In this document: one piece after another, positions 2,439-31,696 of the stretch
How positions within the stretch are numbered: the stretch's first letter is position 1
Layout of the letters: each line of letters opens with the position of its first letter
Assembly: GCA_018813905.1 (NCBI GenBank)
Contig: JAHJAO010000032.1
Span: 1-35,865 of the forward strand
Source: Candidatus Omnitrophota bacterium
Lineage (GTDB): Bacteria > Omnitrophota > Gorgyraeia > B26-G9
Reading direction: 5' to 3'
Length of the DNA stretch: 35,865 nt
The notes under the pieces: model-generated
What the model saw: the letters and a program-made list of their open reading frames with translations, nothing else
Databases searched by the model: none
Told to the model about the DNA's origin: nothing
Position numbers and translations under genes: made by a program

Positions 2439-3497
2439 TTATATATCTAAAATATGCTTCATAAAAAACGGTAAAAATTTAATATTATAAAGAGTATTGC
2501 AGGTATACTGGCACTCGTAAGTACAAAAACATTTTCTATTTCTAATCCATTTTCTTGCTTTATCGGCTAAAATATTTTTCCATAACTTGCTTATATCATA
2601 ATTATAATCACGAAGATTTCCTAATTTATAATCCGGCAGCATCTCGCATGGATAAACATCGCCATTTTCATAGATTACTCCCATAAGGGAGCCGGCATAA
2701 CAATCATAGGACCTTGAATATTTAATAAAGTTTTCGTAAGCAAGCCTCTGGCCTAAAACTTCCCTTGCTCCAATAAAAATGTGCGGTAAACTTTTTTGTT
2801 TGCTATGGATTCTATCATATTCGATTGCATCTATAATCTGTTTATAAATATTAGCATCAACATTCTTTAATTCTGGTGACTTGGGAATTCCTCTTATCAT
2901 CGTTATGCCAGGGTTAATTTTAAATTTAGCATAAATATCTCTCCTTAATTCTTTCATAATATTCTGATTGCCCTTATGCAATGTAATTCCTATACCTACG
3001 TTAAGATTTGAAAAATTATTCTCTAACTTCTTTAACCCCTCCAAAGTACTTATTGCTCTTCCGTAAGCGCCTTTTTTATTCCTATATTTATCATGCTCTT
3101 CTTCAAAACCATCAATCGAAATCCCTATAAAAATATTTGTATTTAAACAACTAGATACTATTTTTTTGGTAATTTTTAAGATATCCTCAGTATTAAAACC
3201 ATTAGAGAATAATACTATATTTTTAGTAACGTTTTTTTTAGATAAAAGTTTAGTAATTTCAAAAAGGTCTTCTCTTAAGAAAGGCTCTCCTCCGGTTAAA
3301 CTTATTGATAATAAAGACGGCAATTTCAATATTACTTTTTGAGCTTCTTGGAAACTTAATTCATTTGAATTTTCTAGATTTCGCGGGTAGTAAAAGCAAT
3401 GGGAGCATCCTAAATTACACTTGGCAGTAAGAAACCATACTAAATGGAGTGGCGGACCTGCTTTATTGAATATCCTACTTAAAAAGAATTTCTGCAT
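2439..3497 (-). CDS. Radical SAM/SPASM domain protein
   Basis: A 352-residue radical SAM enzyme. The cluster-binding motif C-N-L-G-C-S-H-C is at 27-34 (CxxxCxxC), L-T-G-G-E-P-F (the SAM-binding GGE) follows near residue 65, and S-I-D-G-F comes later. The C-terminal SPASM-like region has C-Y-A-G, N-G-D-V-Y-P-C, G-N-L-R and four Cys at about 323, 325, 329 and 333 for auxiliary Fe-S clusters. Such proteins modify peptides, cofactors or, in glycan loci, unknown substrates, so no reaction can be assigned. The ATG at 3497 is 2 nt past the stop of the upstream GT2 gene, with GAGGGGA inside that gene's end as SD, so the two are probably translationally coupled. Its substrate may be related to the sugar handled by that GT. 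Confidence 0.85.
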   Translation of the reverse strand: MQKFFLSRIFNKAGPPLHLVWFLTAKCNLGCSHCFYYPRNLENSNELSFQEAQKVILKLPSLLSISLTGGEPFLREDLFEITKLLSKKNVTKNIVLFSNGFNTEDILKITKKIVSSCLNTNIFIGISIDGFEEEHDKYRNKKGAYGRAISTLEGLKKLENNFSNLNVGIGITLHKGNQNIMKELRRDIYAKFKINPGITMIRGIPKSPELKNVDANIYKQIIDAIEYDRIHSKQKSLPHIFIGAREVLGQRLAYENFIKYSRSYDCYAGSLMGVIYENGDVYPCEMLPDYKLGNLRDYNYDISKLWKNILADKARKWIRNRKCFCTYECQYTCNTLYNIKFLPFFMKHILDI

Positions 3498-3499
3498 TA

Positions 3500-4501
3500 T
3501 TAAACAATCCCCTCTTTTATGGGGGCAATAAAAAATGAGGCTAAAATTGCAATTTCTACTACTATATATTCAATAAATAAAACACCTATGCTTTTTATGC
3601 TAAAGATAATCCCTCTTTTTTTAAATAAAAAGAATAGAAATCTCCAATTATTTATAATAAAAATTAACAGTAAGTACAAATTTAGCCATTTGAATTTAAA
3701 TTTAATTTCTACTATCGCCGCTAACAAAATTAACCCTGGTAAAAAAAGATTAATTATATAAGGTAGGGGGGCTTGTTCTCCTGCTTTATATTTGCCTTTA
3801 GACTTTTTTATAATCTTTATCAGGTTAATAACTCGCTGAAAATCTACCTTGAGCATAGTAAAAAGAGTATATGTTTTTAAATGGTCAACTAAGATATTTT
3901 TATTTATAAACATTAAATTTTTCCCTCTTGTTACCCTATAGCTAAATTCAACGTCTTCAACGCTTGATCCGGAAAAATCCGTTGAAAATCCTCCGGCTTT
4001 TAAAAAAGTTGATTTTTTTATAGCGAAAAAAAAGCTCCCCAAATATTTTACATACGGGGTGTATATGCTACCCCTATAAGCAAGGTCCATATTTTTAAAA
4101 TCAGTAATAAAATTAAAGCTCTGGCTATTTTGAGAATATATGCCTCCTACTGCCAAAATTTCTGGTTTTTGTAGAATGACCTTTACTGCGCTAGAAACAG
4201 CCATAGTTGGAACTCTAATATCGCTATCAATAAAAATAACAATTTCTGATTCTAAGTCCATATTTTTAACGCCGATATTTCTAGAATAAGCTGCGCCGTA
4301 ATTTTTAGAATTAGAAACCGATTTTACAGGATACCTAGCAATTTTTATTAAAGTTTCATCCTTAGAAGCATCGTCAACAACAATTAGTTCTAAATTAGGG
4401 TAATCCTGATTTAAAATTGAATCCAGGCATTCTTCAACAATAGATTGGGAATTATGCGTTGGAATAATTACAGAAACCTTTGGTTGAGATGTCTTATCCA
4501 T
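3500..4501 (-). CDS. GT2 family glycosyltransferase with C-terminal membrane segments
   Basis: A 333-residue GT-A fold glycosyltransferase of family 2. It begins V-S-V-I-I-P-T-H-N-S and continues with V-V-D-D-A-S-K-D at 41-48 and the metal-binding I-D-S-D near 91-94. E-D-V-E-F-S near residue 180 is the likely catalytic-base region. The last third holds hydrophobic stretches rich in L, I and F that read as two or three membrane segments, suggesting action at the inner face of the cytoplasmic membrane on a lipid-linked acceptor. The donor and acceptor cannot be told from sequence. The ATG at 4501 has only a weak SD. It sits between a dead SDR gene upstream and the radical SAM gene downstream. 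Confidence 0.88.
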   Translation of the reverse strand: MDKTSQPKVSVIIPTHNSQSIVEECLDSILNQDYPNLELIVVDDASKDETLIKIARYPVKSVSNSKNYGAAYSRNIGVKNMDLESEIVIFIDSDIRVPTMAVSSAVKVILQKPEILAVGGIYSQNSQSFNFITDFKNMDLAYRGSIYTPYVKYLGSFFFAIKKSTFLKAGGFSTDFSGSSVEDVEFSYRVTRGKNLMFINKNILVDHLKTYTLFTMLKVDFQRVINLIKIIKKSKGKYKAGEQAPLPYIINLFLPGLILLAAIVEIKFKFKWLNLYLLLIFIINNWRFLFFLFKKRGIIFSIKSIGVLFIEYIVVEIAILASFFIAPIKEGIV

Positions 4502-4507
4502 CTGACA

Positions 4508-4771
4508 TTATTTTATTCTTATTAATGAGAGATTCCTTTTCATCGCAAAAGCGATCATCTTTATTGAATTCAGAGTAGAAATATCCTGCCCATCGCTTAC
4601 CATAAAAGTTTCACCTGTTGCCAGTCAGTTTGAGGACCAATATCACCAATCTGGACTACTTCATAATCAATCTGTGCGCACTACCACTCGCAGATCAAAA
4701 CCTGAATTTCGCAAAACTTGGCTCAATGCCTTTCCGATAAAACCTGTCACCCTTGTAACCAATATCGTCAT
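4508..4771 (-). pseudogene. Relic of a WbpV-like SDR gene with internal deletion
   Basis: Between two GT2 genes lies a shortened SDR gene. From ATG 4771 it reads M-T-I-L-V-T-R-V-T-G-F-I-G-K-A-L, a Rossmann start in which the first Gly of GxTGFIG is Arg. It reaches R-V-V-V-R, then needs a frame change to continue as E-V-V-Q-I-G-D-I-G-P-Q-T-D-W, a segment typical of WbpV-like 4-epimerase/reductases. The middle of the gene (about 200 residues, with YxxxK) is gone. The sequence resumes at T-F-M-V-S-D-G-Q-D-I-S-T-L, the family's late V-S-D-G-x-x-x-S-T motif, and ends at TAA 4510-4508. So one frameshift, one large deletion and a damaged nucleotide-binding motif are visible. It accounts for nearly all of the 4502-4806 gap. 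Confidence 0.7.
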
Positions 4772-4806
4772 ATTCTATATTTAATAATGTCTCTTTAATT
4801 CTCTAA

Positions 4807-5721
4807 TTAAGAGCAGTTCGGGGGTGGCGCGCCTGGACCGGTAATTACTCGTTTATCCCGAGAAACCCGGAATTCCAACACCTTAAAAAATTCCCTTATC
4901 CGAATACCAATTCGAACAACCAGGCGTAGCGCAAGTAAATGATGCGGAGCATAATAAATATCATAGAATTTCCTTAACGCCTTATGCAAAACACGAATTT
5001 GTTTAATCCCGCTCTGGTTAATGGACTGACTACCGTAATGCATAACTACTGCTTCCGACACATAGCATATCTTCTGATTATGCTGACCCAGCATACAGCA
5101 GTAGGAAAAATCGCCAAAGAATTGCTCAAACCGTTCATCCAGCAGACCAAATGTTTCCCAGGTCTGGCGGCGGATGATGAATGCTGTAGTACCAATATGA
5201 GGAACCACCTGAGTACGATCATAGTCAATATTAGTACAATAGTATCGGTTCGTAATTGGATTATTCGGCCAGAGTTTATGCAGATTGAGCGTCTGACAAA
5301 TCATTGGAAAAACTCCAGTAAAATTACGGATACATTGTTGAAGCGATCCATCCGGATTGATAAGCTTTGGTCCGGCAGCAGCAATATCCGGATGTTCATC
5401 CATAAAATGCACCAGCGTAGTAAAAGCTCCGGACATGACCTTCACATCGCTATTCAATAACAAGCCATAGCGCCCAGCGGCTGCGCGCAACCCCACATTA
5501 TTGGCTCTGACATATTTCAGATTACGCTCATTGCATATCAAGCGCGCCGCAGGAAAGAACTGGCGTACCATTTCAGGACTTCCATCCTTTGACCCATCAT
5601 CCACCACAATAACTTCAAAGGTAATCCCCGGCGTATTCCGGTAGATAGATTGCAAACATCCCTGTAAAAGTTGCTTAGTATTATAACTAGCTATAATTAT
5701 CGATAAATCGCACCGCTCCAT
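4807..5721 (-). CDS. GT2 family glycosyltransferase, rhamnosyltransferase-like
   Basis: A GT2 protein of 304 residues from ATG 5721. It has L-S-I-I-I-A-S-Y-N-T near the start, V-V-D-D-G-S-K-D-G-S, N-x-G-L-R-A-A-x-G-R-Y and L-L-N-S-D-V as the DXD-equivalent. This layout is typical of the WbbL-type rhamnosyltransferases that transfer 6-deoxyhexoses to lipid-linked oligosaccharides. The frame also opens at GTG 5745, but that codon has no SD. ATG 5721 has a G-rich stretch just upstream and puts the GT2 core at the usual distance, so I prefer it. It follows the WbiB-like epimerase closely, and the two may supply and use the same dTDP-6-deoxyhexose. The sequence looks more GC-rich than the genes around 2400-4500. 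Confidence 0.85.
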   Translation of the reverse strand: MERCDLSIIIASYNTKQLLQGCLQSIYRNTPGITFEVIVVDDGSKDGSPEMVRQFFPAARLICNERNLKYVRANNVGLRAAAGRYGLLLNSDVKVMSGAFTTLVHFMDEHPDIAAAGPKLINPDGSLQQCIRNFTGVFPMICQTLNLHKLWPNNPITNRYYCTNIDYDRTQVVPHIGTTAFIIRRQTWETFGLLDERFEQFFGDFSYCCMLGQHNQKICYVSEAVVMHYGSQSINQSGIKQIRVLHKALRKFYDIYYAPHHLLALRLVVRIGIRIREFFKVLEFRVSRDKRVITGPGAPPPNCS

Positions 5722-5756
5722 TATCCCCCCACTGATGGTTGCCACAATCTAATTCT

Positions 5757-6911
5757 CTATAAATTTCTAGCCTTTAATTCTCGCTCTGCGCTATGCGTTT
5801 TATCCTCAAAGACCGATTGCCCTCTAGCCCAGGTTATAAACTGTGCCAAGCCGGTATCTAGATTCATTATCTTCCAATCCGGCCACAGCTGATACAGCTG
5901 AGTTAAATCCGCCCAGTTGTGTCGAATATCTCCGACTCGAAACGCACCTGTCACCGTAACCGGCGAATCGCTCCTCCAGCACTGCTTTAGAATACCAGCC
6001 AATTCCAAAATAGAAGTGGGCCGCCCGCTACCGATATTAACCACAATACTACGATCTCTAAATTCTATAGCCCGAGTACATGCCTGTACAACATCTTTTA
6101 CAAAAACAAAATCCCGGCTTTCAGCGCCGTCTTCATAAATATTTACCGGCAAATTCTGGCGTAATTGATTGGAAAAAATAGATAAAATTCCCGTATAGGG
6201 ATTTCGCAATGACTGACCCGGCCCATATACATTCTGTAAACGCAAAACAGCAACGGAAATCCCTAGCGCCTTGCCCATAGTCAGTGACATTTGCTCCTGG
6301 GCCAATTTCGTACAAGCATACAAAGAAACAGGGATCGGTATTGCCGTTTCCGGAGTTGCCATTGGCTGAGCTGGTCCGCTGCACACCGGACAAATAGGAT
6401 CCCAGCACCTAGCCTGAAACTCTGTTTTCGTACGCGGTTGTGCCGTAAATAAGCCACAAACGCCCTGGCATTTATACAGTCCTTCTCCATAGATAGCTCT
6501 TGAAGAAGCCAGAACTATTTTTTTTATAGTATTTTTTTTATTTACCAGAACATCCCATAGTATAGCGGTACCTTCGACATTTTCTTTAACATATCTACTG
6601 ATCTCATACATGGACTGCCCGGTCCCTGTTTCTGCTGCTAAATGAACTATTACATCTTGACCATCAATAGCTTCAATCCAATCTTCTTTTACCGTAACAT
6701 CCCCTAATATAAAATTAACCTTGTTTTTAATATTCTGGTATAAGACAGAATTATCCGGACTATCACCGTGAACCTGTTGTTTTAAATTATCTAAAACAGA
6801 CACATTGTAATCTAATGACTTTAAATATAGCGCTAAGTTGCTACCAATAAAACCAGCTCCTCCGGAAATTAAGATGTTTTTATTTTTCTTCATAATTAAA
6901 TTTTTTCCCAT
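5757..6911 (-). CDS. NDP-sugar 4-epimerase, WbiB-like (candidate dTDP-L-rhamnose 4-epimerase)
   Basis: A 384-residue extended SDR. G-G-A-G-F-I-G is at 17-23, A-S-S-R-A-I-Y-G-E-G at about 135-144 and Y-A-C-T-K at 198-202 (YxxxK). Its distinguishing mark is an insert between the Ser and Tyr motifs with Cys at 148, 152, 169, 174 and 177, the last three as C-x4-C-x2-C, which looks like a small metal-binding knuckle. I recall this insert in the WbiB-type dTDP-L-rhamnose 4-epimerases that give dTDP-6-deoxy-L-talose, so that is the best guess. The donor genes rmlABCD are not in the window and would have to lie elsewhere. ATG 6911 has a weak SD; M-K-K-N-K-N-I-L at residue 7 is the alternative start. 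Confidence 0.75.
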   Translation of the reverse strand: MGKNLIMKKNKNILISGGAGFIGSNLALYLKSLDYNVSVLDNLKQQVHGDSPDNSVLYQNIKNKVNFILGDVTVKEDWIEAIDGQDVIVHLAAETGTGQSMYEISRYVKENVEGTAILWDVLVNKKNTIKKIVLASSRAIYGEGLYKCQGVCGLFTAQPRTKTEFQARCWDPICPVCSGPAQPMATPETAIPIPVSLYACTKLAQEQMSLTMGKALGISVAVLRLQNVYGPGQSLRNPYTGILSIFSNQLRQNLPVNIYEDGAESRDFVFVKDVVQACTRAIEFRDRSIVVNIGSGRPTSILELAGILKQCWRSDSPVTVTGAFRVGDIRHNWADLTQLYQLWPDWKIMNLDTGLAQFITWARGQSVFEDKTHSAERELKARNL

Positions 6912-6916
6912 TTATT

Positions 6917-6959
6917 CTTTTCGAAAAGAGTTCGTGCTATCTGTCATGCAGTACAGATA
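6917..6959 (-). other. Two short inverted repeats in the leader of the 6911 epimerase gene
   Basis: The 72-nt gap before the WbiB-like gene holds TATCTGT (6938-6944) facing ACAGATA (6953-6959), a 7-bp stem with an 8-nt loop. It also holds the 12-bp palindrome CTTTTCGAAAAG (6917-6928). Neither is GC-rich or followed by a T-run, so they do not look like a terminator. A structured leader or an operator is possible but unproven. Confidence 0.25.
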
Positions 6960-6983
6960 AAAATTGAAGCTCTTTCCATCACG

Positions 6984-8351
6984 CTACTTGAAGAAAACTT
7001 TCAATTTCCTGAATTTCTGCAGAAAAGAATACCGGTAAAATGCTATTCTCGCATAATATTCCGCCATTGCTTTGACGGTTCCTCGGTTTCGAGCCATTCC
7101 TTTCATTAGGCGGTTCCTCAGAACCTTTAGTTTCTTGACTGTACGTTCGCCGTTGTAATAAATCACACCCTCATTGTGTAGCCAAAATTCATCGTTGATC
7201 ACGCCCTGCTGCTTGGCAATCTCATAAATTTCAGTGTCTGGCAAAACCCAAAGGATCCCTCCCGTGTCACAGAAATATGGTTTAATCTCATACATAAGCC
7301 GAATTGTCTCATCAATTGTTTGTTCGTCTTCCCCGGGATTACCCACCATCAAATAAGCTTTAGGCTTAATTCCGGAGTTATGAACGAGACGAAAGGCATT
7401 CCGAATATGTTCGGGAGTTTGTCCTTTCTTTACACTCTTCAATATTCTCGCACTTCCTGATTCAACACCAAAATCAATCCGAAAGCAACCGGCTTTCTTC
7501 ATCCAAAAAAGCATTTCCTCCCTTATATGGGTAACATGGGAGGAAGCTGTCCATTTAATCTCCAGCCCTCTGTCCAAAATGCCTTTGCATATTTCAATAA
7601 CCCGATCATTGCGTACTGTAAAGTTGTCATCATAGAAGACAAAATTTCGCACATTATAGGTATCGTAAAGCCATTGAACCTCACCTAGAACATTATCCGC
7701 GCTTCTCGCTCTCCATGTATGTTTCCAAAAACGGGCGCCTGAGCAAAAAGCGCATCTGTAAGGGCACCCTCGTGAAGACATGAGGCACGTCGCTCGCCCC
7801 CCGGTCTCTGGAAGTCCAATATAATTATCAAGCTTAAAATCCGAATAACTGGGATAAGGAATCGAATCAAGGTCATCGATTAATTCCCTAGGAGCCGTTT
7901 TGATAATGTTATTGCCTTCGCGATATACTATACCATTAACTTGGGACAAATTGCCACCATCAAGAAAAACTCTCGATACATCGACAATAGTACATTCCCC
8001 CTCGCCAAGCACAACAACATCGGCATAAGCCTGCACGAATAGGTGTTCTGGAAAAGCTGTGGCATGATGCCCACCAAAGACAATCTTAGCATCAGGTAGA
8101 ATCTCACGCACAAGTCTTGCACATCTAAGGCTCTGATGACGCTCTACCGTAAAACACGTAATGCCGATAATGAAAGGAGATATCTCTCGGATATTCGCCG
8201 CCAGTCGACTCCAGGAAAAGGCCGAAGCATCCAGGACTTTAGCGCTAAGCCCAGCTTTTTTGAGCATTGAACACAGGTAAGCAAGTCCAATGGGAGGAAA
8301 ATCAGGTCTCTGGGGAACCTCGCGCGGAGGACTAATAAGCAAAACGTCCAT
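6984..8351 (-). CDS. B12-binding-domain radical SAM protein (BchE/HpnJ class)
   Basis: A 455-residue protein with a class B radical SAM layout. An N-terminal cobalamin-binding Rossmann-like domain (about 1-140) starts V-L-L-I-S-P-P and has V-F-G-G-H-H-A-T at about 91-98. The radical SAM core follows with S-R-G-C-P-Y-R-C-A-F-C at about 193-203 (Cys 196, 200, 203). Later come F-x-x-D-D-N-F-T and V-G-N-P-G-E-D. Relatives carry out methylations and other radical reactions on lipids, tetrapyrroles, antibiotics and sugars. In this locus a sugar or lipid-linked glycan substrate is the natural inference, but no specific reaction can be given. The start is well supported: GAGGAGAT lies 8 nt before ATG 8351. 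It sits between a GT4 gene and the WbiB-like epimerase. Confidence 0.85.
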   Translation of the reverse strand: MDVLLISPPREVPQRPDFPPIGLAYLCSMLKKAGLSAKVLDASAFSWSRLAANIREISPFIIGITCFTVERHQSLRCARLVREILPDAKIVFGGHHATAFPEHLFVQAYADVVVLGEGECTIVDVSRVFLDGGNLSQVNGIVYREGNNIIKTAPRELIDDLDSIPYPSYSDFKLDNYIGLPETGGRATCLMSSRGCPYRCAFCSGARFWKHTWRARSADNVLGEVQWLYDTYNVRNFVFYDDNFTVRNDRVIEICKGILDRGLEIKWTASSHVTHIREEMLFWMKKAGCFRIDFGVESGSARILKSVKKGQTPEHIRNAFRLVHNSGIKPKAYLMVGNPGEDEQTIDETIRLMYEIKPYFCDTGGILWVLPDTEIYEIAKQQGVINDEFWLHNEGVIYYNGERTVKKLKVLRNRLMKGMARNRGTVKAMAEYYARIAFYRYSFLQKFRKLKVFFK

Positions 8352-8377
8352 AATTATTATCTCCTCATCAGTATTTA

Positions 8378-9463: not shown

Positions 9464-9487
9464 ATTAATCCCCGGTTAACATCCTTA

Positions 9488-10741
9488 TCAATACAATAAG
9501 AATGCCCTTATAGTAGCGTTAAAAATCTTGATTATCGAAGAGACAAATAACACAACGCTGAAGATAAGGTAATATTTTGGTTTTAAAAATAACTTGGATT
9601 TCAAAAGATAGCGGTCAAAGATGACAATTAAAAACGGTATTAAAAAATAGTAATACCTGCCCTGGTCAATCACGGGATAAGTAAGCAATATAATATTATA
9701 GGCCGTGAATGACGAAAGCGCGTACAGAAAAAGACTATTCTCCTGCAGGCTTTCCCGCAGAAAGAGCTTTCTCAAGCAATAAACTATTAAAATAAAAAAC
9801 AGAACGTACTCAGGCAAAAAAGCCAATAGACTTACACTCCCCCCCAGATAATAAAGGCCTAAAAAAGTGGTTCCGAATGATTTAAGGGGTTCATATTTAA
9901 AAAGGTAGCACCAGTCAATAATATTAGCCTTAAAAAATGGAAATAACTTAGGGATAACGCCTATATGTATCAACAAACCATAAATAAGAATCAAAATAAA
10001 CGCCATGAATACAAAAAGTATTTTTTTCTTTAAGCTAAAGACTTTTCTTTTAGCCTGTAATAAATAAGAATAAAATACGTAGAAAAATATTACAGCAATC
10101 AACATCATTGCGTTATTATCAAAAAATTTGTACATAATAATACTGCCAAATAGCAGCAAAAAAAAACGGTTATAATAGACTAATAAAATAAAAAATAAGG
10201 CTTCAAAAAAATAGATAAAAAAATCGAGATTAAAAGAAACCAGCGATAAGGAAACCGAGGGCCAGGAAAAAAACAGTAGATTCAGGCGAAAAATAAATGT
10301 TTTCTCATTATTACTTATCTTTATTCGTTTTAGAACAAAATATACCGCAAAAATAAAAAGTATAATAATAAAAATTTGGGCGAATTTAAGCATAACAGGA
10401 AGCATACAATTAAAATCTTTATGAATATATGCCATGGAATTGGAAGCAAAAGTAAAATTTGCGTTTGCTTCAAGATTCCTCCAATCGTTATATTGAAAAT
10501 TGCAGAATAGATTATAAAATTGATGCATCAAAGAATAATAAATGTTTCTGAATGAATTTGTCGCCATGCGAGTAAAATGCAAAGCTTCATCCGGCATTTC
10601 CCATTCCGGAAAAAATACGGCTGTCAGCGCAAGTTTTATTCCTAAAAGGAAGAGAACTACCTTATCGGCATTACCAAGAGTAAAGTTTTTATTACGGTCT
10701 CTTTCGTCTATGCTCATTTGGAAATTCTTATCCCTGTTCAT
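9488..10741 (-). CDS. Multi-span membrane protein with E-M-P-D-E motif (GT-C or polymerase candidate), paralogue 1
   Basis: A 417-residue integral membrane protein with roughly ten hydrophobic segments and a short charged N-terminus. After the first membrane segment comes F-F-P-E-W-E-M-P-D-E-A-L-H-F. An acidic Asp-Glu at this place recalls GT-C glycosyltransferases (PMT/ArnT-like) and DUF2142-type proteins, which use polyprenyl-phosphate sugars outside the membrane. G-L-Y-Y-L-G-G-S and D-Q-G-R-Y-Y-Y-F-L-I-P occur near the C-terminus. It is clearly a paralogue of the protein at 14982-16250. A Wzy-like polymerase role is an alternative, as no other Wzy is evident. Its ATG overlaps the stop of the upstream GT4 gene as ATGA, which suggests coupled translation. 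Confidence 0.7.
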   Translation of the reverse strand: MNRDKNFQMSIDERDRNKNFTLGNADKVVLFLLGIKLALTAVFFPEWEMPDEALHFTRMATNSFRNIYYSLMHQFYNLFCNFQYNDWRNLEANANFTFASNSMAYIHKDFNCMLPVMLKFAQIFIIILFIFAVYFVLKRIKISNNEKTFIFRLNLLFFSWPSVSLSLVSFNLDFFIYFFEALFFILLVYYNRFFLLLFGSIIMYKFFDNNAMMLIAVIFFYVFYSYLLQAKRKVFSLKKKILFVFMAFILILIYGLLIHIGVIPKLFPFFKANIIDWCYLFKYEPLKSFGTTFLGLYYLGGSVSLLAFLPEYVLFFILIVYCLRKLFLRESLQENSLFLYALSSFTAYNIILLTYPVIDQGRYYYFLIPFLIVIFDRYLLKSKLFLKPKYYLIFSVVLFVSSIIKIFNATIRAFLLY

Positions 10742-11862: not shown

Positions 11863-11885
11863 ATTTTTCTTTTCCTCCAAACTAT

Positions 11886-13842: not shown

Positions 13843-13890
13843 TACTTTTGGTATAACTATAATTTTGTTATAAAAATTTTGAACAAAAAT

Positions 13891-14244: not shown

Positions 14245-14256
14245 TTTCTTCTCCTT

Positions 14257-14940: not shown

Positions 14941-14981
14941 TAAAAGCCTCGTGAACTAAAGGTTTTATTTGATCAATCTAT

Positions 14982-16250
14982 TTAACCTATTACAAAACCG
15001 CGTAAGGCGGCTTCAGCAAGCTTAATCATTGAAGAAATAAAAAATAAAATGCCTATCGCCAAATAATATTTATTGCTAACGAACAACTTTGACTTCAAAA
15101 AATAACGATCAAACATAACTATTAAAGCGGGAATCAAAAAATAATAATACCTTCCCTGATCAATCGCGTGTAAAGTTAATATTGCTACATTAAAGGTTAA
15201 AAAAGAAGAAAGAATATAAAGAAAAAGCCTGTTTTCTAATAGGCCATCACGTGTAAAAAGTTTCCATAAACAAAGCAATGAAAAAACTAAAAACAGAACA
15301 TACTCGGGCCAAAAAGCCAGTAAGCTCATACTGCCTCCTAAGTAATACAAACCCAAGAATAGGCATCCTAAAGACTTCAAAAGCCTGTAATTAGTAGTCG
15401 TGGATAGGTCACTAATCACCCATTCCAAATAGGGACAGAGCCTGCTTATAATTCCCACGCGGACTAAAACAGCATAAATTAGAATCAATACAACCGATAT
15501 GCCAACTAAGCCTAATTTATTTTTTAAAACTAAGACTCTTTCACCGGCCCTTGTTAGAAAAAAGAAAATTGAATAACAAATGGTCATCGCAATCATAATG
15601 ATCGGATTATTATCAACAAAGATACACATAAGTAAGTTAAAAAGCAACAGTGGGAGAACTTGATTATAATAAATCAGGATAATAAAAAATAACGCTTCGT
15701 AGAGGTAAATAAAAAAATCTGGAGATATCCCCGCCAACGAAGAAGATACCGCAGGCCAAGACAAAAAAAGCAAACTTAACCGAAAAGTAAATATTTTTTC
15801 AAACCCACTAATTTTCTTGATTCGTTTAAGGATAAAATAAAACCCAAAAATAAAAAATAAGGCGCAAAATACATGAACAAATCTAAGCAAAATAACGAAA
15901 AGAGAATTAAAGCTGTTATGAATAAAAATAAACGAGTTCGAGGCAAAGCTAAAGTGTGAATTTAACTCTAATGAGGGGCCGGTAAGATGGAAAAAATTTT
16001 TAAATAAAATATAAAACTGATGCATCCATGAAAAATACAGATTCCCGTGATAATCATAGTTTATATTGAAATTTGTATGGTAGTCTTCATCCGGCATCTC
16101 CAACTCAGGGAAAAAAATAGCCGATAAAAACAATTTTAATACCAGCAAGAATATAACTAGAATATCGAACCTATTTAGTCTAAATTTTACATCTTTTGCC
16201 TTTTCTCTTACGTCTCTGGAAAATACAGGAAAAACATTAATAAGGTTCAT
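14982..16250 (-). CDS. Multi-span membrane protein with E-M-P-D-E motif, paralogue 2
   Basis: A 422-residue membrane protein with about ten hydrophobic segments. It is a clear paralogue of 9488-10741. Shared landmarks are F-F-P-E-x-E-M-P-D-E, F-A-S-N-S, F-R-L-x-L-L-F-x-S-W-P, G-L-Y-Y-L-G-G-S and D-Q-G-R-Y-Y-Y-F-L-I-P. The Asp-Glu after the first membrane segment suggests a GT-C transferase that uses a polyprenyl-phosphate sugar on the periplasmic side. A Wzy-type polymerase is the alternative. ATG 16250 follows an AAAAGGA SD. It lies 10 nt after a GT2 gene and directly before the DPM-like GT2 that could make its donor. Confidence 0.7.
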   Translation of the reverse strand: MNLINVFPVFSRDVREKAKDVKFRLNRFDILVIFLLVLKLFLSAIFFPELEMPDEDYHTNFNINYDYHGNLYFSWMHQFYILFKNFFHLTGPSLELNSHFSFASNSFIFIHNSFNSLFVILLRFVHVFCALFFIFGFYFILKRIKKISGFEKIFTFRLSLLFLSWPAVSSSLAGISPDFFIYLYEALFFIILIYYNQVLPLLLFNLLMCIFVDNNPIIMIAMTICYSIFFFLTRAGERVLVLKNKLGLVGISVVLILIYAVLVRVGIISRLCPYLEWVISDLSTTTNYRLLKSLGCLFLGLYYLGGSMSLLAFWPEYVLFLVFSLLCLWKLFTRDGLLENRLFLYILSSFLTFNVAILTLHAIDQGRYYYFLIPALIVMFDRYFLKSKLFVSNKYYLAIGILFFISSMIKLAEAALRGFVIG

Positions 16251-16260
16251 AGCTGTCCTT

Positions 16261-17310: not shown

Positions 17311-17342
17311 GTTCGACTCTTTTCTTAAAAAATATATTTGTT

Positions 17343-18923
17343 TCAGTCAAAAACCACCTTAACATCCACTTCGGTTTTTAGAGATCTGTTTCTAACTTTT
17401 TGATATAGTTCTCGTAGGGCATGTTTATTCTCCGGGGTTAACCTTAGATAAGAAAACAACAGATACAGGAATATAACAATCGTACTAAGCGTTAGTCTAA
17501 AAATTTGGCTATTTATAAAATAGTGTATAAAAAGAATACAGACTAGTGTCGGTAAAATTATTATAAAAAAGTATTTTTTAGTCTCTAAAAAGTTAAATCT
17601 AATCTTTCCATGCGTCCTGCAATATATTTCCCGAGGAATCAACCAAAATACGGTTGACAATGCCGCCAGGAATGTCCCAAGCGCTACGCCTCCAATCCCC
17701 AGAAATCTTATTAATATCAATGAAAAAATTAGATTTGCTGCTGCTTCGCTCCAGCCGATATAAACAGCGTTTTTTATTTCATTAATGCTTGAAAGTAATC
17801 CACTATGGGCATGAACGAGTGATAGGCTATATCCGTATCCCCCCAATGCAAAAACCACAAGCATGCCTGCGTATCCGGAAGGCCCTGTCAAAAGATTTAT
17901 TATGTCTTTTGTAAAAGCAACAGCAACTATCCAAACCAAACCGCCCAATATTTGTTCAATGGCCGTAATTCTGTTATAATTATTTTCAATCCATTTGTAA
18001 TCCTTTGCAGCAAAAGCCTTCCCATACATCGGGTTGAGCGCCATATTAAGAGTGGTAAAAATAACAAACATGCCCGCAATTAATCGAAAGGTAATATTAT
18101 AAGGGGTGACGGCCTTTAATCCAATGATATTACTTATAACCAAATTATCCGTGTGCCAAACAACCAAAGCCGCTATACCGCACGCAAAAATCCTAAAACC
18201 GGTCACAAGAATAGATTTTGTCGAAAACTCATACGTCGAAGCGGGTTGAAATAACTTATTAAAAGAATATTTTAATGTGCGTAAGTTGTCTTTTTCAAAA
18301 AAGTTAAAATGTATAACACTAATAATGCTAATGATTAAGGTAAAAACACCTTTTAATACAAAGTAATAAACAATACTTCTTTGTGAAAATACCGTTATTA
18401 TAAGCGCCAGAAATGAAAAAATGATTGCGCTAATGTCATATAATCTAGCGATATACACTTTTTGTATAGCAACAAATCCTTGCAAAAATAATGCAAAAGG
18501 AAGATTGAATAAAAATAAGGCTGCCGCAAAAAATGCAGCCTTTGCCACTTCATCATGGATATGCGCAGGAATTTTTCCGATTATTTTTATCCAAAACGGA
18601 TAGCGCGTAAAAAATGCAAGAATACCAAAAAAAACAATAGCTATAAGAGTTACTAAAACAAAGGCTTTGGCAATAATTTTTAGTTGTTCTAATTTATCTA
18701 ATGCTTTCGCAGTAAGAATTCCCGCAGCCGTCGAAATTCCCAAATTTGTAATTGATAAGTAAATTAATAAAGTGGTGATGATGGCAAATGCACCGTATCT
18801 TTCGACACCAAAATAGGTAAGGCTCATCGGTATAGAGATAAGACTAATACTTACGGAGATAAAATTATACAAATAACCAGCGCCAGCCCCTAAGAAAAAA
18901 ACTTTTTTTCGCTGTCGAAACAT
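17343..18923 (-). CDS. wzx: Lipid-linked oligosaccharide flippase (Wzx / MOP superfamily)
   Basis: A 526-residue membrane protein with about 12-14 hydrophobic helices. The N-terminus shows the G-A-G-A-G-Y-L-Y-N to P-M-S-L-T-Y-F-G-V-E-R-Y-G pattern common to polysaccharide MOP exporters (RfbX/Wzx). It should flip the undecaprenyl-diphosphate-linked repeat unit across the inner membrane. Length is slightly above the usual 400-500 residues, with a basic C-terminal tail. Its presence with a Wzz-like gene argues for a Wzx/Wzy-dependent system. Substrate specificity cannot be read from sequence. Confidence 0.85.
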   Translation of the reverse strand: MFRQRKKVFFLGAGAGYLYNFISVSISLISIPMSLTYFGVERYGAFAIITTLLIYLSITNLGISTAAGILTAKALDKLEQLKIIAKAFVLVTLIAIVFFGILAFFTRYPFWIKIIGKIPAHIHDEVAKAAFFAAALFLFNLPFALFLQGFVAIQKVYIARLYDISAIIFSFLALIITVFSQRSIVYYFVLKGVFTLIISIISVIHFNFFEKDNLRTLKYSFNKLFQPASTYEFSTKSILVTGFRIFACGIAALVVWHTDNLVISNIIGLKAVTPYNITFRLIAGMFVIFTTLNMALNPMYGKAFAAKDYKWIENNYNRITAIEQILGGLVWIVAVAFTKDIINLLTGPSGYAGMLVVFALGGYGYSLSLVHAHSGLLSSINEIKNAVYIGWSEAAANLIFSLILIRFLGIGGVALGTFLAALSTVFWLIPREIYCRTHGKIRFNFLETKKYFFIIILPTLVCILFIHYFINSQIFRLTLSTIVIFLYLLFSYLRLTPENKHALRELYQKVRNRSLKTEVDVKVVFD

Positions 18924-18962
18924 TTAATATCTTTCGGTTTAATGAATATTTTTATCGTGTAT

Positions 18963-19916
18963 TTACATTTGCGATAATATTGACTTCCAGAACGCATACA
19001 ATTTCCACAAAAATCTGAAAATTATATTGGGGATAAAAAAAAGTGGTAAGTCTATAAGCCAAAAGCTTGGAAAACCTTTATATAAATCAATACATTCTTT
19101 AATCAAATTTTTGTCTACTTTTAATCCTTTTGCTTTTGCACTCGGAATCATTCGCCAGTAACTTCCTTTAATTGATAGAAATGCTTTCCTTATTATCTCC
19201 TTACTATAATTATATTGATTCATTGTCCGGTAAACCTTTACAGTTTTAATCCCCACCATCAAGAATGAACCATTCTTCCCCCATCTTTTAGTTACATTCT
19301 TCAGCTCTGACTTAAAACTATCTCTACAAATTAAACTCGGATATTTTGAAAGAGCGACAATTAAAAACCCTAAATGAATCCAGCCCGATCCAATATAGTT
19401 GGTTAAATCGGTTTCTTCCCAAACAAATTTATTTACAACATTTCCAGATAAACCTCCGGCCCGAAATTTGGTAATCGCAAAAAAGTCATCTCCATTGTGG
19501 CATAAATAATCTTCTTTGAGGTTCGCGCAGCGTTTGTAACTATCGACAAATATTTCGGCAACACCAGGATATTTTTTAATAACACCTAAAACATGACTAA
19601 TTGCGCCTTCATTCATGAAATCGTCATCAGCAAATAACCAAACAAAACTCCCATTCGCCCTTCTTACTACAGCATCGACATTTTTGTCAAATTCAAGGTT
19701 GCTATTGTTACTAAAATATCTAATTATCGGAAACCTACTCTGATATTCTCGAATAATTTTCGCAGTATCATCTATTGAGCCATTATCGGAAATAACAATT
19801 TCCACTCCGGGTTCAAGCTGTTTTACAATGCTATCCAAAGTAATTCTAATTGATTGAGAACCATTAAATGTCGGAATGCCAATTGTAAGTTTAATATTTT
19901 TGCTATTATCTACCAT
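18963..19916 (-). CDS. GT2 family glycosyltransferase
   Basis: A 317-residue GT2 enzyme starting L-T-I-G-I-P-T-F-N-G-S, with V-I-S-D-N-G-S-I-D-D at about 39-48. The metal site is L-F-A-D-D-D-F near 93-99, with a run of three Asp. This type resembles abequosyl- and other dideoxyhexose transferases of GT2 in its F-A-D-D-D motif, which is suggestive given the CDP-dideoxyhexose genes here but not decisive. A hydrophobic stretch rich in F, L and I near the C-terminus (about 285-305) probably contacts the membrane. It lies between the CgeB-like GT and the flippase. Confidence 0.85.
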   Translation of the reverse strand: MVDNSKNIKLTIGIPTFNGSQSIRITLDSIVKQLEPGVEIVISDNGSIDDTAKIIREYQSRFPIIRYFSNNSNLEFDKNVDAVVRRANGSFVWLFADDDFMNEGAISHVLGVIKKYPGVAEIFVDSYKRCANLKEDYLCHNGDDFFAITKFRAGGLSGNVVNKFVWEETDLTNYIGSGWIHLGFLIVALSKYPSLICRDSFKSELKNVTKRWGKNGSFLMVGIKTVKVYRTMNQYNYSKEIIRKAFLSIKGSYWRMIPSAKAKGLKVDKNLIKECIDLYKGFPSFWLIDLPLFFIPNIIFRFLWKLYAFWKSILSQM

Positions 19917-19947
19917 TAGTTTCTCTATTCATAAAAGTTTGTTATTG

Positions 19948-21210
19948 TTAAATCTTTGAGGGTCTTCCAGTTAAACCTAATATTTTTTTAAATCTTCTGC
20001 TTAATTTTCGCAAAATCATAACAATCTGCTTAATAATAACTACGGGTATCAAAAAAATACTACGTGATTTAATGCTCGCTGATATTTCCTCCCAGACAAG
20101 ATGGAATTTAAAACATCGCATAAAATATAGAATATATCTAATCCTGCTTAAACAAATCGCCTCGAGAAAATAATTGTCAATAATCACATTCGAGTTGCGG
20201 TATTTTTTATTTTTTGCCCTATAATAAATCAATTGCAGAAGCCTTTTCCAAAGCCGGCGAGAATCATAATCTTTTAATGCCCTTTCATAAGCATTTTGCG
20301 CCATTTGTTTCCTTTTTTCTTCATTCTTTAAATATAAATTTACCTTCTCCAGTAAATCATTCTTATCATAAAAAACATCTATTTCAGAGCCTATTTCGAA
20401 AATCCGGTTAATTATCAAAGAGTATTCCGTCAACACAAACGACTTGGTTAAAGCAATCTCCTGACAGTGGCCCTTAAGCTGCTTTATCCTGGATTCTATT
20501 TTATTCTTAAAAACCTCAGAAATCCCCGAAAAATTTAGGTTAATTTTACTGTTATTGAATATCTCTATCATTTCTTTTTTATCGACGACCCCGTTTTTTG
20601 AACCCCACCCAAAAACTTCAACCTTAATCCCATTTTGCTTCAGGAAAGCAATGAATTCTTTTCTTCCTACCCTATCCAATCTCCCGACAAAAGACACATC
20701 GTATTTCTTGTTTCCTATTCCAAGCGGAACATATACTTGTGCGTCCATTGCCGCCGGCAGCAATAAACTCTCAATGCCGTATATCATAAATTCAAATTTG
20801 TCATAATAATCGTCGACCAAAATCAAATCCAATGCCTGTGACAAGTAGCGGTAACTATTGTGAAAATGTTCCGGGACGTCTCCGAAATAATTAAAAATAA
20901 AGTAATCTTTTCTTAACCGTTCTATAAAATTTAAATCCATCTCAGAGACAGGCATATTCCTGAAATATATGATGCGGATATTGTTTTTTTCAAGATACTC
21001 GTAAAGGTATTTTTTAAATCCTCGGCAACCCAATTGTTTGTAAATGGTTCGGTAATCCAGGTTAAATGTAGGGCCGTGTATTTGCTGAATAATACTTGCA
21101 TAATCCTTATCTATCGTGCAATAACAATCGACATTGGAATCTTCCAAAATCAATATCGGCAAAGTGCCGAATTCTTGTTCTTCAATTTTACTAAAATCAA
21201 CGTCAATCAT
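19948..21210 (-). CDS. CgeB-like GT-B glycosyltransferase
   Basis: A 420-residue protein with no strong N-terminal family mark. The middle reads Y-D-V-S-F-V-G-R-L-D-R-V-G-R near 180-195 and G-W-G-S-K-N-G. Later comes I-G-S-E-I-D-V-F-Y-D-K-N-D-L-L-E-K-V near 275-292, the pattern of CgeB-like glycosyltransferases (Glyco_trans_1_2 domain), where this segment sits in the nucleotide-sugar domain. The basic C-terminus (K/R-rich, with a hydrophobic segment about 385-398) may bind the membrane. Its role is transfer of an unknown sugar. The usual E-x7-E is not obvious, which is normal for this branch. ATG 21210 has a weak GGGAC SD. Confidence 0.7.
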   Translation of the reverse strand: MIDVDFSKIEEQEFGTLPILILEDSNVDCYCTIDKDYASIIQQIHGPTFNLDYRTIYKQLGCRGFKKYLYEYLEKNNIRIIYFRNMPVSEMDLNFIERLRKDYFIFNYFGDVPEHFHNSYRYLSQALDLILVDDYYDKFEFMIYGIESLLLPAAMDAQVYVPLGIGNKKYDVSFVGRLDRVGRKEFIAFLKQNGIKVEVFGWGSKNGVVDKKEMIEIFNNSKINLNFSGISEVFKNKIESRIKQLKGHCQEIALTKSFVLTEYSLIINRIFEIGSEIDVFYDKNDLLEKVNLYLKNEEKRKQMAQNAYERALKDYDSRRLWKRLLQLIYYRAKNKKYRNSNVIIDNYFLEAICLSRIRYILYFMRCFKFHLVWEEISASIKSRSIFLIPVVIIKQIVMILRKLSRRFKKILGLTGRPSKI

Positions 21211-21235
21211 TTTTATTGTCCCTATTCTGTAAAAT

Positions 21236-22282
21236 TTATTTTATTTGTGAATGAGAATTTAATACACTTATAAGAGTATCGGCGAATGCCGGAGATAAAA
21301 AAGACGCAAAAAGTGGGCTTGCTAAATATCTACTTATTGCTGTCTGATATTGTTGATATTCTTTTTCAGTTACACTAATTAAATAATCAGCTAAAGCTTT
21401 ATTTGATTTGAATTTTCTTTTATCGATAAACGCCGAAGGATCAACATAATCAGTAATATTCGAAGCTCCTAGGTAAATTGGGACACAGCCGCTACGCATA
21501 CAATCAAACATCTTTTCAGTAATCCAACCTGGAACACAGGCATTTTCGTAACATAAGGCAAAACGATATCTTGGAAATACAGTTGATTTGTTATTAACGA
21601 CACCTCGATAAGAGTTATAAAATGGGGTAGTAAATTTTAATAAATGCTGGCTTAGGGCAACCGGATGATTCCAGCCAATACCATACAGATCAAAATCATG
21701 AGGCAAGTATTTTTCGAAATATTTTATAGCAACGCGTCTTTCATAATATAATTCTAACGGGTGTTTACTATATTTATTAGCAGAAATATTAACCAAAAGT
21801 TTTCGATTCTTAAATGGCATTGTTATAATATCTGGCCATTGAACAGGTTGAGGCATTTTAAACTTAAAATAATGTTTACCGTCTACCAAAGTATCATTCC
21901 AAGTAAATACAACTGGGAACATTGCATGAAGTTTGGGGTTATAGTTTTCAGGCAAACCCACTAATCCTTCCATAAGTAAAAGTGCAATTCTATTTTGCAG
22001 GCCACGCTCCTGTACTTCTTTATAAACATTCCTTCTTGATATACTGTGAGGTTTGACTATTTGTCTTAAAATATTTATTATCTTTCTTCTAATACTAACC
22101 ATCCCAATTGAACTAGCTTCGAAAAATAATACCATATCGCCTCTATCTATTGGCGCTTTGTCTGACAACGCAAAATTGTAGCCCAAAGATTGAAGCCTGG
22201 TTAAAAAATATGGGTCAGCACTAACATTATAATGTGCCCAAAATGACTTAAATGAGCTTGCATGAAATACTAGTGTCTTCAT
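21236..22282 (-). CDS. GT10 family alpha-1,3/4-fucosyltransferase-like protein
   Basis: A 348-residue protein. Its C-terminal half carries the GT10 signature: R-F-A-L-C-Y-E-N-A, then W-I-T-E-K-M-F-D-C-M-R-S-G-C-V-P-I-Y-L-G-A, then a D-P-S-A-F-I-D segment. These residues bind GDP-fucose in characterised members. An upstream W-N-H-P region and a basic R-R-x-V motif are also present. The expected reaction is transfer of L-fucose, or a GDP-linked relative such as colitose, to a GlcNAc/Gal-type acceptor. Two GDP-fucose-synthase homologues in the same locus support use of such donors. ATG 22282 has GAGG about 6 nt upstream. Confidence 0.85.
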   Translation of the reverse strand: MKTLVFHASSFKSFWAHYNVSADPYFLTRLQSLGYNFALSDKAPIDRGDMVLFFEASSIGMVSIRRKIINILRQIVKPHSISRRNVYKEVQERGLQNRIALLLMEGLVGLPENYNPKLHAMFPVVFTWNDTLVDGKHYFKFKMPQPVQWPDIITMPFKNRKLLVNISANKYSKHPLELYYERRVAIKYFEKYLPHDFDLYGIGWNHPVALSQHLLKFTTPFYNSYRGVVNNKSTVFPRYRFALCYENACVPGWITEKMFDCMRSGCVPIYLGASNITDYVDPSAFIDKRKFKSNKALADYLISVTEKEYQQYQTAISRYLASPLFASFLSPAFADTLISVLNSHSQIK

Positions 22283-22321
22283 AATCTGCCTCTATCAAAT
22301 GTCTTCGTATTTAACTTAACT

Positions 22322-24256
22322 TTAGTGTCCGTTCTTTCCATCTTCAGAATAATTAAAACTTATCTCTTCCAACCTGGCCTTGTAATTTGATTTACGCCGG
22401 CCATACCAAATTGCTTTTGTGTTCCAATCAAAATCATCCTTGTATTGAGTAATCTTATTTTTATAAGTATACTTACAAGGTTGCGGAGACATCTCTCCAG
22501 TGGAGAAATATTTTATCCAATCTATGTTGAATTGTCCCTTTATAAGTTTTGACAGGTTATTTTTATTTACAAGTGTAAACAGTTGAAATTCTATGAGATC
22601 TTCCGTTTCATTGTTAAACTGAAGACTAAACTGTTCAGCTATAAACATGCATATCTCTTTTCTGAGTTCATCCTTGTCGTTGGTAACTCTCAACCATGTG
22701 GCTTCGTCAACCGGCCAAACTATATGACCAAGTTCAGGGTCGATGTGATTCCAGCCTTTACCGTCATATCCATTTTTAATGTAGGATTTCATGTACCAAT
22801 ACTCTTTGCCAAATAAAGAGTTGGGATTGCATTCACAGTACGTCTCAAACCTGGAAAAGAATTCTGAGTAAGTTATGTTTGCTTTCTTAACAATATATTT
22901 GGTTATGTAGTTTATGACGCCCAGATGTTGAAAAGCCAATATATACCACGAATACAAATACATATTCTCCATATCATCTCGTGTAAATGTGGTGGAAGAA
23001 ATGAGCAAATCCTCGTATTCCACAATATCCTTTGTATTTATGGATACGTGTCCAAAATAGAGAGGAACCCTGACCGTCTTCACTTTATACTTCCTTCTAA
23101 ACGCTTTATTTTTAATCTCAGTATTTTCCAATACTGTGAAGTTGTAAATATAAACCGTATCTACACAACTTTCAAATATAACTTTGTTTAATCCCTCTTT
23201 GAAACTTTCCAAGGTTTCCCCTGGTAATCCACGAATAAGTTCTGTAAAACATTGAGTTCCTTTTCGCTTGAAATTATTCGTGATGACCACAAATTCTTCA
23301 AAGTCCACACTCTTTCTATTTACAGCAGTTAATGCCTTTTTGTCTAGTGATTGTAGAGAACACCCAACAGAAGCAAGAAGGTCTGCACTTTTAAGCTCTT
23401 CGGCAATACCCAGTAGCCTATCAGTTACTTTCTTGTCCCAACTTGGTTTAAAAATCATCGGATATCCTGTGGCCACCTTTATCTTCTTTATATACTGAGC
23501 AATCTCAACGTCTCTAGAAAACATGCCAAAGTTGGCGTCGGCACAATCAATGTATACGATCTTATTTTTGGAGAACCAATCTACCTCTTTATACAATCGG
23601 TTGACATTAAACTTTCGAACGGTATTATAGGCAGATTTACCCCAAGCACAATAAAAACACCCATAGGGACACCCACGCATGGTTTCCCACGTAGCAATCC
23701 AACTAGCTGCTTTGGGGTCAACCAATTTATGCATAGTTCCGTCAAGATATGGGCTAGAAATTTCATCCGAGTTTTTTATGAAAGTCTCCGGAAACCACGA
23801 AGGGCTTGTGCGTGTGCTAAGACCTTTTATGCTATCAAAAGATTTGTTGTCAAGATATGCCGTGAATATGTTTTTGAGGATAACCTCTCCTTCATTATGA
23901 ACTATGAGATCTATGTATTCGTGGGTCTTCAGTAGTTCTTCACATTTACCAGGAAGTTGTGGGCCACCAAATATAGTAAGACATTTAGAATTCCTTTTCT
24001 TAACTTCTTGCGCCAATACTTTTGTTATTTCCCAGTTCCAAGAATAACACGAACACAGCAGTATGTCAGATTCGCTGTATTTTTCTGCGTATTCGTATAT
24101 CTTTGGCCTATCAACAGCCGTAGGAAAAAATTCAAAGTTATTTCTGATTTCTTCAAACTGGTTAAGGTAAGAAACTAATATAGCTATAGCATATGGCATA
24201 TGGAGCTGATCTCCGAATCTATATCCAAACTGACAGGATGCTACTCTATATTTCAC
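22322..24256 (-). CDS. Large radical SAM protein with probable B12-binding N-terminal domain
   Basis: A 644-residue enzyme. Residues about 1-150 resemble a cobalamin-binding domain: L-L-C-S-C-Y-S-W-N, then T-I-F-G-G-P-Q at 94-100 and H-N-E-G-E at 120-124. The radical SAM motif R-G-C-P-Y-G-C-F-Y-C is at about 194-203 (Cys 196, 200, 203), followed by G-L-P-G-E-T and V-G-C-S-L-Q-S. About 250 C-terminal residues past the core have no motif I recognise, which makes it longer than most B12 radical SAM methyltransferases (450-550 residues). The start is GTG 24256 with GGAG about 9 nt upstream. It lies downstream of the ColD-like gene, separated by a remnant of another gene. The substrate is unknown; a sugar is inferred from context. 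Confidence 0.82.
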   Translation of the reverse strand: MKYRVASCQFGYRFGDQLHMPYAIAILVSYLNQFEEIRNNFEFFPTAVDRPKIYEYAEKYSESDILLCSCYSWNWEITKVLAQEVKKRNSKCLTIFGGPQLPGKCEELLKTHEYIDLIVHNEGEVILKNIFTAYLDNKSFDSIKGLSTRTSPSWFPETFIKNSDEISSPYLDGTMHKLVDPKAASWIATWETMRGCPYGCFYCAWGKSAYNTVRKFNVNRLYKEVDWFSKNKIVYIDCADANFGMFSRDVEIAQYIKKIKVATGYPMIFKPSWDKKVTDRLLGIAEELKSADLLASVGCSLQSLDKKALTAVNRKSVDFEEFVVITNNFKRKGTQCFTELIRGLPGETLESFKEGLNKVIFESCVDTVYIYNFTVLENTEIKNKAFRRKYKVKTVRVPLYFGHVSINTKDIVEYEDLLISSTTFTRDDMENMYLYSWYILAFQHLGVINYITKYIVKKANITYSEFFSRFETYCECNPNSLFGKEYWYMKSYIKNGYDGKGWNHIDPELGHIVWPVDEATWLRVTNDKDELRKEICMFIAEQFSLQFNNETEDLIEFQLFTLVNKNNLSKLIKGQFNIDWIKYFSTGEMSPQPCKYTYKNKITQYKDDFDWNTKAIWYGRRKSNYKARLEEISFNYSEDGKNGH

Positions 24257-25619: not shown

Positions 25620-25635
25620 AGATATGCTCATCCTT

Positions 25636-27986: not shown

Positions 27987-27995
27987 AACTCTGCT

Positions 27996-29741: not shown

Positions 29742-29750
29742 ATTCGGGTT

Positions 29751-30713: not shown

Positions 30714-30720
30714 AATATTG

Positions 30721-31689: not shown

Positions 31690-31696
31690 ATAAACC

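Follow-up and report, generated by a model that had tools for sequence, protein, structure and literature searches.

A putative TokK/ThnK/CysS-type cobalamin-dependent radical SAM methylase in a probable branched-sugar glycan locus of an Omnitrophota bacterium

What would several radical S-adenosylmethionine (SAM) enzymes do in a bacterial glycan locus, and what kind of enzyme is the largest of them? We addressed this question for a 35.9-kb contig (C108; the whole stretch is hereafter "the window") from the 2.15-Mb genome of a Candidatus Omnitrophota bacterium, in which genes for nucleotide sugars and glycosyltransferases surround a radical SAM gene encoding 644 amino acids (aa). We propose, with a rough probability of 0.6 and on the basis of homology and gene context, that this gene encodes a class B (cobalamin-dependent) methylase of the TokK/ThnK/CysS type that C-methylates a sugar of the surface glycan.

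Radical SAM genes and the architecture of the 644-aa protein

Three open reading frames (ORFs) on the minus strand are open throughout, and each carries a CxxxCxxC motif, their products all exceeding the Pfam Radical_SAM cut-off; to this extent, the three intact radical SAM genes of the original prediction were recovered. Two of them had been expected to bind cobalamin (B12), which holds for the 455-aa protein through its strong Pfam B12-binding domain (75.6 bits) and for the 644-aa protein through its homology to TokK.

22322..24256, minus strand: putative TokK/ThnK/CysS-type cobalamin-dependent radical SAM methylase, 644 aa, CPYGCFYC, Pfam Radical_SAM 47 bits
6984..8351, minus strand: BchE/HpnJ-like B12 radical SAM protein, 455 aa, CPYRCAFC, Pfam Radical_SAM 89 bits
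2439..3497, minus strand: radical SAM/SPASM protein, 352 aa, CNLGCSHC, Pfam Radical_SAM 65 bits
1960..2204, minus strand: SPASM-domain fragment without a radical SAM core, from frames, alignment and Pfam SPASM (E = 3.2e-12)

A phmmer comparison of the 644-aa protein with the Protein Data Bank (PDB) matched two molecules, TokK (E = 3.4e-72, query residues 19-599 of 644) and CysS (E = 9.8e-51, query residues 60-482). The protein is organized into a B12 domain (residues ~1-180), the CxxxCxxC motif at 196-203 with cluster cysteines C196, C200 and C203, and a C-terminal domain (~400-644). Its score against the Pfam B12-binding model is 27.4 bits, below the cut-off of 32.1, and its alignment to TokK runs without gaps over residues 19-120, which identifies the B12-binding Rossmann domain. 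The roughly 250 C-terminal residues previously considered unplaceable correspond to the C-terminal domain of TokK and CysS: the single-sequence TokK alignment reaches residue 599, a profile built only from the C-terminal domains of 12 family members matched TokK and CysS and no other PDB entry, and Foldseek ranked these two molecules first (~620-650 columns), the latter counting as support only, given the low confidence of the AlphaFold model used (built from four sequences; mean predicted local distance difference test, pLDDT, 58.5). We therefore rejected a new domain in this region, and by architecture the protein belongs with TokK, ThnK and CysS rather than defining a new sugar-modifying type. 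The best NCBIfam model was KedN5 (NF033712; 234 bits, E = 2e-69, ~450 residues), whose curated cut-off of 700 bits is far from reached, so that the protein is not classed as a KedN5 member; ThnK itself scores 272 bits on this model, also under the cut-off.

Two tryptophans add to this picture. Trp73 aligns with TokK W76, and Trp205, two residues past the last cluster cysteine, with TokK W215; in TokK, W76 sits beneath the cobalt, and W215 is positioned between SAM and cobalamin (PMC9692996, PMC12846815). In the family alignment, 29 of 30 rows have W73, and W205 is variable in the far clade. Because the TokK homology, the C-terminal domain and the Trp residues are all retained, methyl-transfer chemistry is well supported by inheritance, and the 644-aa protein very probably has methylase-type chemistry.

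A dead fourth radical SAM gene had also been placed at 1960-2425. This region holds an 81-codon SPASM piece preceded by stops, and on frames, Pfam and alignment we rejected a fourth radical SAM gene. Since the piece lacks the CxxxCxxC core and is only 27% identical to the adjoining 352-aa SPASM protein, it represents a fragment rather than a recent duplication.

The sugar locus and the relatives of the 644-aa protein

In the direction of transcription, the locus encodes a Wzz-like protein, an Fcl-like short-chain dehydrogenase/reductase (SDR), a UDP-galactopyranose-mutase-like protein, RfbF, an RfbG-like protein, an SDR, a thiamine diphosphate (ThDP) enzyme, RfbH, a further Fcl-like SDR, a ColD-like dehydratase, the 644-aa enzyme, a family 10 glycosyltransferase (GT10), more glycosyltransferases and a flippase. 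The genes nearest to the 644-aa gene are as follows.

31697..32485, minus strand: RfbF glucose-1-phosphate cytidylyltransferase, NCBIfam TIGR02623 406 bits, cut-off 300
30721..31734, minus strand: RfbG-like CDP-glucose 4,6-dehydratase, NCBIfam TIGR02622 242 bits, below cut-off 278
29751..30713, minus strand: SDR, candidate branch ketoreductase or epimerase of the cassette, Pfam Epimerase E = 4e-44
27996..29741, minus strand: ThDP enzyme of the acetolactate-synthase/YerE superfamily, NCBIfam acolac_lg 534 bits, cut-off 538; PDB matches are acetolactate synthases; between RfbH and the SDR
26667..27986, minus strand: RfbH, CDP-4-keto-6-deoxyglucose 3-dehydratase, NCBIfam RfbH 698 bits, cut-off 423
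25636..26583, minus strand: GDP-fucose/colitose-synthase-like SDR, from sequence and Pfam Epimerase
24351..25670, minus strand: ColD-like sugar 3-dehydratase, best PDB match ColD 2gms (E = 1e-76), SHHIT motif; immediately upstream of the 644-aa gene
21236..22282, minus strand: GT10 fucosyltransferase-family glycosyltransferase, Pfam Glyco_transf_10 E = 6e-16; directly downstream of the 644-aa gene

RfbF, RfbG, RfbH and a ThDP carboligase stand side by side at 26667-32485 and form a yersiniose-type cassette, with the RfbG model below its cut-off and the ThDP enzyme, which may be a YerE or an acetolactate synthase, scoring just short of the biosynthetic acetolactate synthase threshold. In the ColD-like protein and RfbH, both of the DegT type, a histidine replaces the lysine that binds pyridoxal phosphate, the mark of sugar 3-dehydratases such as ColD and RfbH. 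From these genes, a CDP-3,6-dideoxy-4-keto sugar is predicted, which could be branched by a YerE-like enzyme, and the locus may possibly also make a GDP-colitose-like sugar; gene adjacency slightly favours the ColD product over the CDP sugar as candidate substrate of the 644-aa enzyme. The RfbF-RfbG-(SDR)-ThDP-RfbH cassette also occurs in another genome of the class (L129, 2276-7522), where two BchE-like B12 radical SAM genes adjoin it.

Relatives of the 644-aa protein were sought across several sets of genomes. A scan of named genomes returned three: those of an unclassified bacterium and of a Pelagibacteraceae metagenome-assembled genome lie in clear sugar loci, and that of Nitrospina neighbours further B12 radical SAM genes, an aldo/keto reductase and an SDR. 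Within the window's phylum, 22 of 285 genomes contained a match at E <= 1e-60, ~9 of them close and full-length and scattered over families; in the window's own taxonomic family, no sampled genome other than its own reached E 1e-60. A further class survey added three relatives, and plasmid records one, in Azospirillum sp. TSA2s (gene E6C67_RS04265, product WP_136701551.1), which shares 46% identity with L094 of the sugar clade, with annotated neighbours comprising a GDP-mannose 4,6-dehydratase (GMD), an oxidoreductase, a transketolase, an epimerase, a glycosyltransferase and an aldo/keto reductase, and with a "hypothetical protein" adjoining the transketolase that is the pyrimidine-binding half of that transketolase. 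A search of phage records for close homologues gave one weak partial match only.

SDRs, GDP-sugar dehydratases, GHMP kinases and aldo/keto reductases characterize the gene settings of the sugar clade, and among 108 neighbours in eleven close loci Pfam identified Epimerase (20), GDP_Man_Dehyd (19), Transket_pyr (9), Transketolase_C (8), E1_dh (5), GHMP kinase (4) and aldo/keto reductase (4) domains. A ThDP carboligase, counted as an E1-alpha/beta pair, a transketolase pair or an acetolactate-synthase-type enzyme with phosphonopyruvate decarboxylase left out, lay near 9 of 14 close relatives (13 sugar-clade loci and L097) and 5 of 16 distant relatives, compared with 1 of 16 control loci (loci of homologues of the 455- and 352-aa proteins) and 0 of 20 random stretches. 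For the close group, the enrichment reached Fisher p-values of 0.0014 against control loci and 4e-5 against random stretches, with neighbours labelled by small home-made profiles and the choice of ThDP families fixed after the first loci had been viewed. The original prediction had asked whether homologues always travel with rfbFGH/ThDP genes; the 644-aa family does recur in loci that combine nucleotide-sugar genes with ThDP carboligases. According to a 2025 review, these three ThDP superfamilies put carbon branches on keto-sugars or ketones (PMC12247030).

Two recurrent arrangements were seen in passing. TokK-like genes stand beside phosphoenolpyruvate (PEP) mutase and phosphonopyruvate decarboxylase genes in L009 (16169-20054, with a 2-aminoethylphosphonate transaminase in addition) and L097 (10724-16838), loci that could possibly direct methylated phosphonate glycans. 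A conserved ~767-aa protein without a Pfam match (L032, 10688-12997; L094, 13956-16259) recurs with a cassette of E1-alpha/beta, DegT, SDR and TokK-like genes.

Proposed function, phylogenetic placement and rival explanations

By analogy with TokK-type methylases, a first SAM would remethylate cob(I)alamin held by the N-terminal Rossmann domain of the 644-aa enzyme, and a second SAM would be cleaved at the 4Fe-4S cluster bound by C196, C200 and C203 to give a 5'-deoxyadenosyl radical. This radical would take a hydrogen from an sp3 carbon, and the resulting carbon radical would take the methyl group from methylcobalamin, in a substrate channel shaped by the C-terminal domain. Most likely, the RfbF/G/H-ThDP and ColD/SDR genes of the locus would supply the substrate, either a deoxy or branched sugar in nucleotide-activated form or a glycan precursor that contains this sugar. 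The surface glycan would then bear a C-linked methyl group or an extended branch. Methyl transfer, the sugar substrate and the carbon attacked are all inferred for this enzyme, a sugar being its likely substrate. Of the unactivated-carbon modification of the glycan in the original prediction, the part that stands is a B12 radical SAM family recurring in sugar loci, with C-methylation as the best guess.

How far gene context can be carried over to the 644-aa protein depends on its phylogenetic position. From neighbourhoods alone, we had first assigned it to the sugar/ThDP clade (13 rows, support 100/99), which includes the window's phylum, Azospirillum, Nitrospina and Pelagibacteraceae; this assignment was rejected, as the tree places the protein outside. 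The sugar reading therefore rests on the window's own locus together with G337, which branches on the same side of the tree and whose glycan locus contains DegT, SDR, GMD-like and GT2 genes, and G372, which neighbours SDRs and a nucleotidyltransferase, with the sister clade as support. The third relative in this part of the tree, L097, neighbours phosphonate genes and an SDR. The window protein and G372 are joined long branches, and their grouping may be false; in the approximately unbiased (AU) test, forcing the window protein into the sugar clade was not rejected, either singly (p = 0.165) or with its near kin (p = 0.128). Because the AU test rejects no move, the place of the window protein in the tree is unsure.

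Several observations weigh against a sugar C-methylase. The protein lies outside the sugar/ThDP clade and groups, through a long branch (1.99), with L097, G337 and G372, and this group is placed beside ThnK and an enzyme from a nonribosomal peptide synthetase (NRPS) cluster (94/94). It is only ~23-31% identical to TokK and all relatives, and its AlphaFold model is poor (mean pLDDT 58.5). Five relatives from the same phylum (L098, L099, L106, L107 and L110) have no sugar genes nearby. Finally, the loci in the ThDP test share ancestry, their flank lengths differ, and the random stretches were often shorter. On whether homologues lie mostly outside glycan loci, the outcome that would have spoken against the original prediction, the picture was mixed: one sister clade lies in sugar loci, further relatives belong to carbapenem or NRPS clusters, and some from the same phylum lack sugar neighbours.

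One rival reading is a TokK-type methylase whose substrate is a small natural product, a lipid or a phosphonate, with the genes for that substrate either interspersed in the glycan locus or located elsewhere. In favour of this reading, the closest enzymes of known function work on carbapenam and on a pantetheinylated aromatic substrate (PMC12846815), further relatives occur in NRPS clusters or beside PEP mutase genes (L009, L097), and the tree puts the window protein closer to ThnK than to the sugar clade. We nevertheless consider such a substrate unlikely, since NRPS, PEP mutase or other natural-product genes were not seen in the window, where the neighbours are sugar and glycosyltransferase genes, and since the phosphonate loci also contain sugar genes and may themselves encode phosphonate-decorated glycans. 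Still less probable is a TokK fold turned to other B12 radical chemistry on a sugar (epimerisation, dehydration or ring rearrangement) with no methylation. B12 radical SAM enzymes outside the TokK group, such as OxsB and AprD4, do catalyse such reactions, and the neighbouring 455-aa protein matches both weakly; the 644-aa protein, however, is far closer to TokK and CysS than to OxsB or AprD4, both in sequence and in fold, and retains both Trp residues tied to methyl transfer.

A different possibility, somewhat unlikely in our view, is that all three radical SAM genes are ordinary products of an expansion across the lineage, reached the locus separately and have no common glycan role. The whole genome contains 88 radical SAM and 27 B12-binding places, so that a Poisson estimate from its own density gives 1.47 radical SAM genes expected in 35.9 kb (P(>=3) ~0.18) and 0.42 of the B12 type (25 taken; P(>=2) ~0.07). 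~31 BchE-like relatives of the 455-aa protein lie in the same genome, and relatives were found in 29 of 29 genomes tried. Because of this density and the expansion of the 455-aa family, the gene count is no evidence of anything special, which removes both an unusual number of radical SAM genes and the argument that polysaccharide loci rarely need so many. Neighbourhoods of the 455- and 352-aa homologues also vary, some SPASM relatives lying by haem-synthesis genes. On the other hand, the 455-aa homologues are mainly found among glycosyltransferases, the adjacency of SPASM and GT2 genes recurs (L122-L124), and the 644-aa family is rare in the phylum, as the survey above indicates. More than one B12 radical SAM gene per sugar locus was also found in L032, L105, L111 and the Nitrospina locus (L010). 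Elsewhere in the genome, contigs C16, C46, C34 and C72 hold radical SAM clusters far denser than the window, with >10 such genes within 45 kb on C16.

The 455- and 352-aa proteins are separate enzymes that need not act on the sugar of the 644-aa enzyme. On NCBIfam models, the former scores 229 bits for BchE (cut-off 481, E = 9e-68) and 167 for HpnJ (cut-off 578), neither curated cut-off being reached. Its gene lies among glycosyltransferases in the window and in many relatives, with glycosyltransferases and methyltransferases as the most common Pfam-annotated neighbours of its homologues, the nearest of which (L114, 1-2116) is directly downstream of a GT10-like gene related to that at 21236-22282. 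The 352-aa protein lacks a B12 domain and ends in a SPASM-like region that scores slightly under the Pfam cut-off; its gene is directly downstream of a GT2 glycosyltransferase, as adjoining GT2 genes also accompany homologues in L122, L123 and L124, within neighbourhoods that are mixed overall.

Other features of the window include a near-perfect ~50-residue tandem repeat (GDIYNARIEL...TKDILA twice) in the Wzz-like protein at 34993-35628, membrane-protein paralogues at 9488-10741 (without a Pfam match) and 14982-16250, an SDR at 5757-6911 with a cysteine-rich, possibly metal-binding insert (CQGVCG...CWDPICPVCSG), and a ManC-like mannose-1-phosphate guanylyltransferase ORF at 137-715 that is 192 aa long and apparently truncated near the contig end. 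An Rfam search of the window gave no match.

Comparison with known systems

TokK-type methylases are known from antibiotic pathways. The present data suggest a methylase of this architecture in a glycan locus, as part of a recurrent association with branched-sugar genes, and not a categorically new enzyme. More broadly, and only tentatively, this association may reflect an undescribed, widespread route in which a ThDP carboligase (YerE-like, a two-subunit keto-acid dehydrogenase or a split transketolase) first places a carbon branch on a keto-sugar, and a TokK-type methylase then methylates or lengthens this branch. If so, alkyl-branched sugars of a type so far linked to antibiotics would occur in surface glycans. 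The repeated occurrence of full-length relatives next to nucleotide-sugar and branching genes, in the named strain Azospirillum sp. TSA2s among others, suggests that methylation of unactivated carbons also serves to diversify bacterial surface glycans, and predicts sugars that routine glycan analysis might misassign. In an incomplete search of the open literature, we found no paper describing the association of TokK-type and branched-sugar genes, and nothing relevant on polysaccharide loci that contain B12 radical SAM enzymes.

Among characterised systems, the carbapenem C6 methylases TokK and ThnK (PDB 7kdx) resemble the 644-aa protein over its full length, sharing the B12 domain, radical SAM core, C-terminal domain and equivalents of W76 and W215, but are 25-27% identical to it, and its gene lies in a glycan locus rather than a carbapenem cluster. 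The iterative cystobactamid methylase CysS (PDB 9n1b) has the same three-domain architecture and lower-axial Trp, with lower similarity (E 1e-50) and a pantetheinylated aromatic as substrate. KedN5 provides the best NCBIfam model, yet at 234 versus 700 bits, and BchE and HpnJ are likewise the best-matching models for the 455-aa protein, which comes from a large expansion and falls far under their cut-offs. With the yersiniose pathway (RfbF/G/H and YerE), the window shares RfbF, RfbG-like and RfbH proteins and an adjoining acetolactate-synthase-like ThDP enzyme, whereas the known route as reviewed includes no radical SAM enzyme (PMC12247030). The closest working likeness for the proposed reaction is with the gentamicin sugar C-methylases GenD1 and GenK, which act at sp3 carbons of aminoglycoside sugar rings, GenD1 being a precedent for sugar C-methylation by a B12 radical SAM enzyme (PMC4340712); these enzymes act on finished pseudotrisaccharides, however, and are likened to the 644-aa protein by function and not by sequence.

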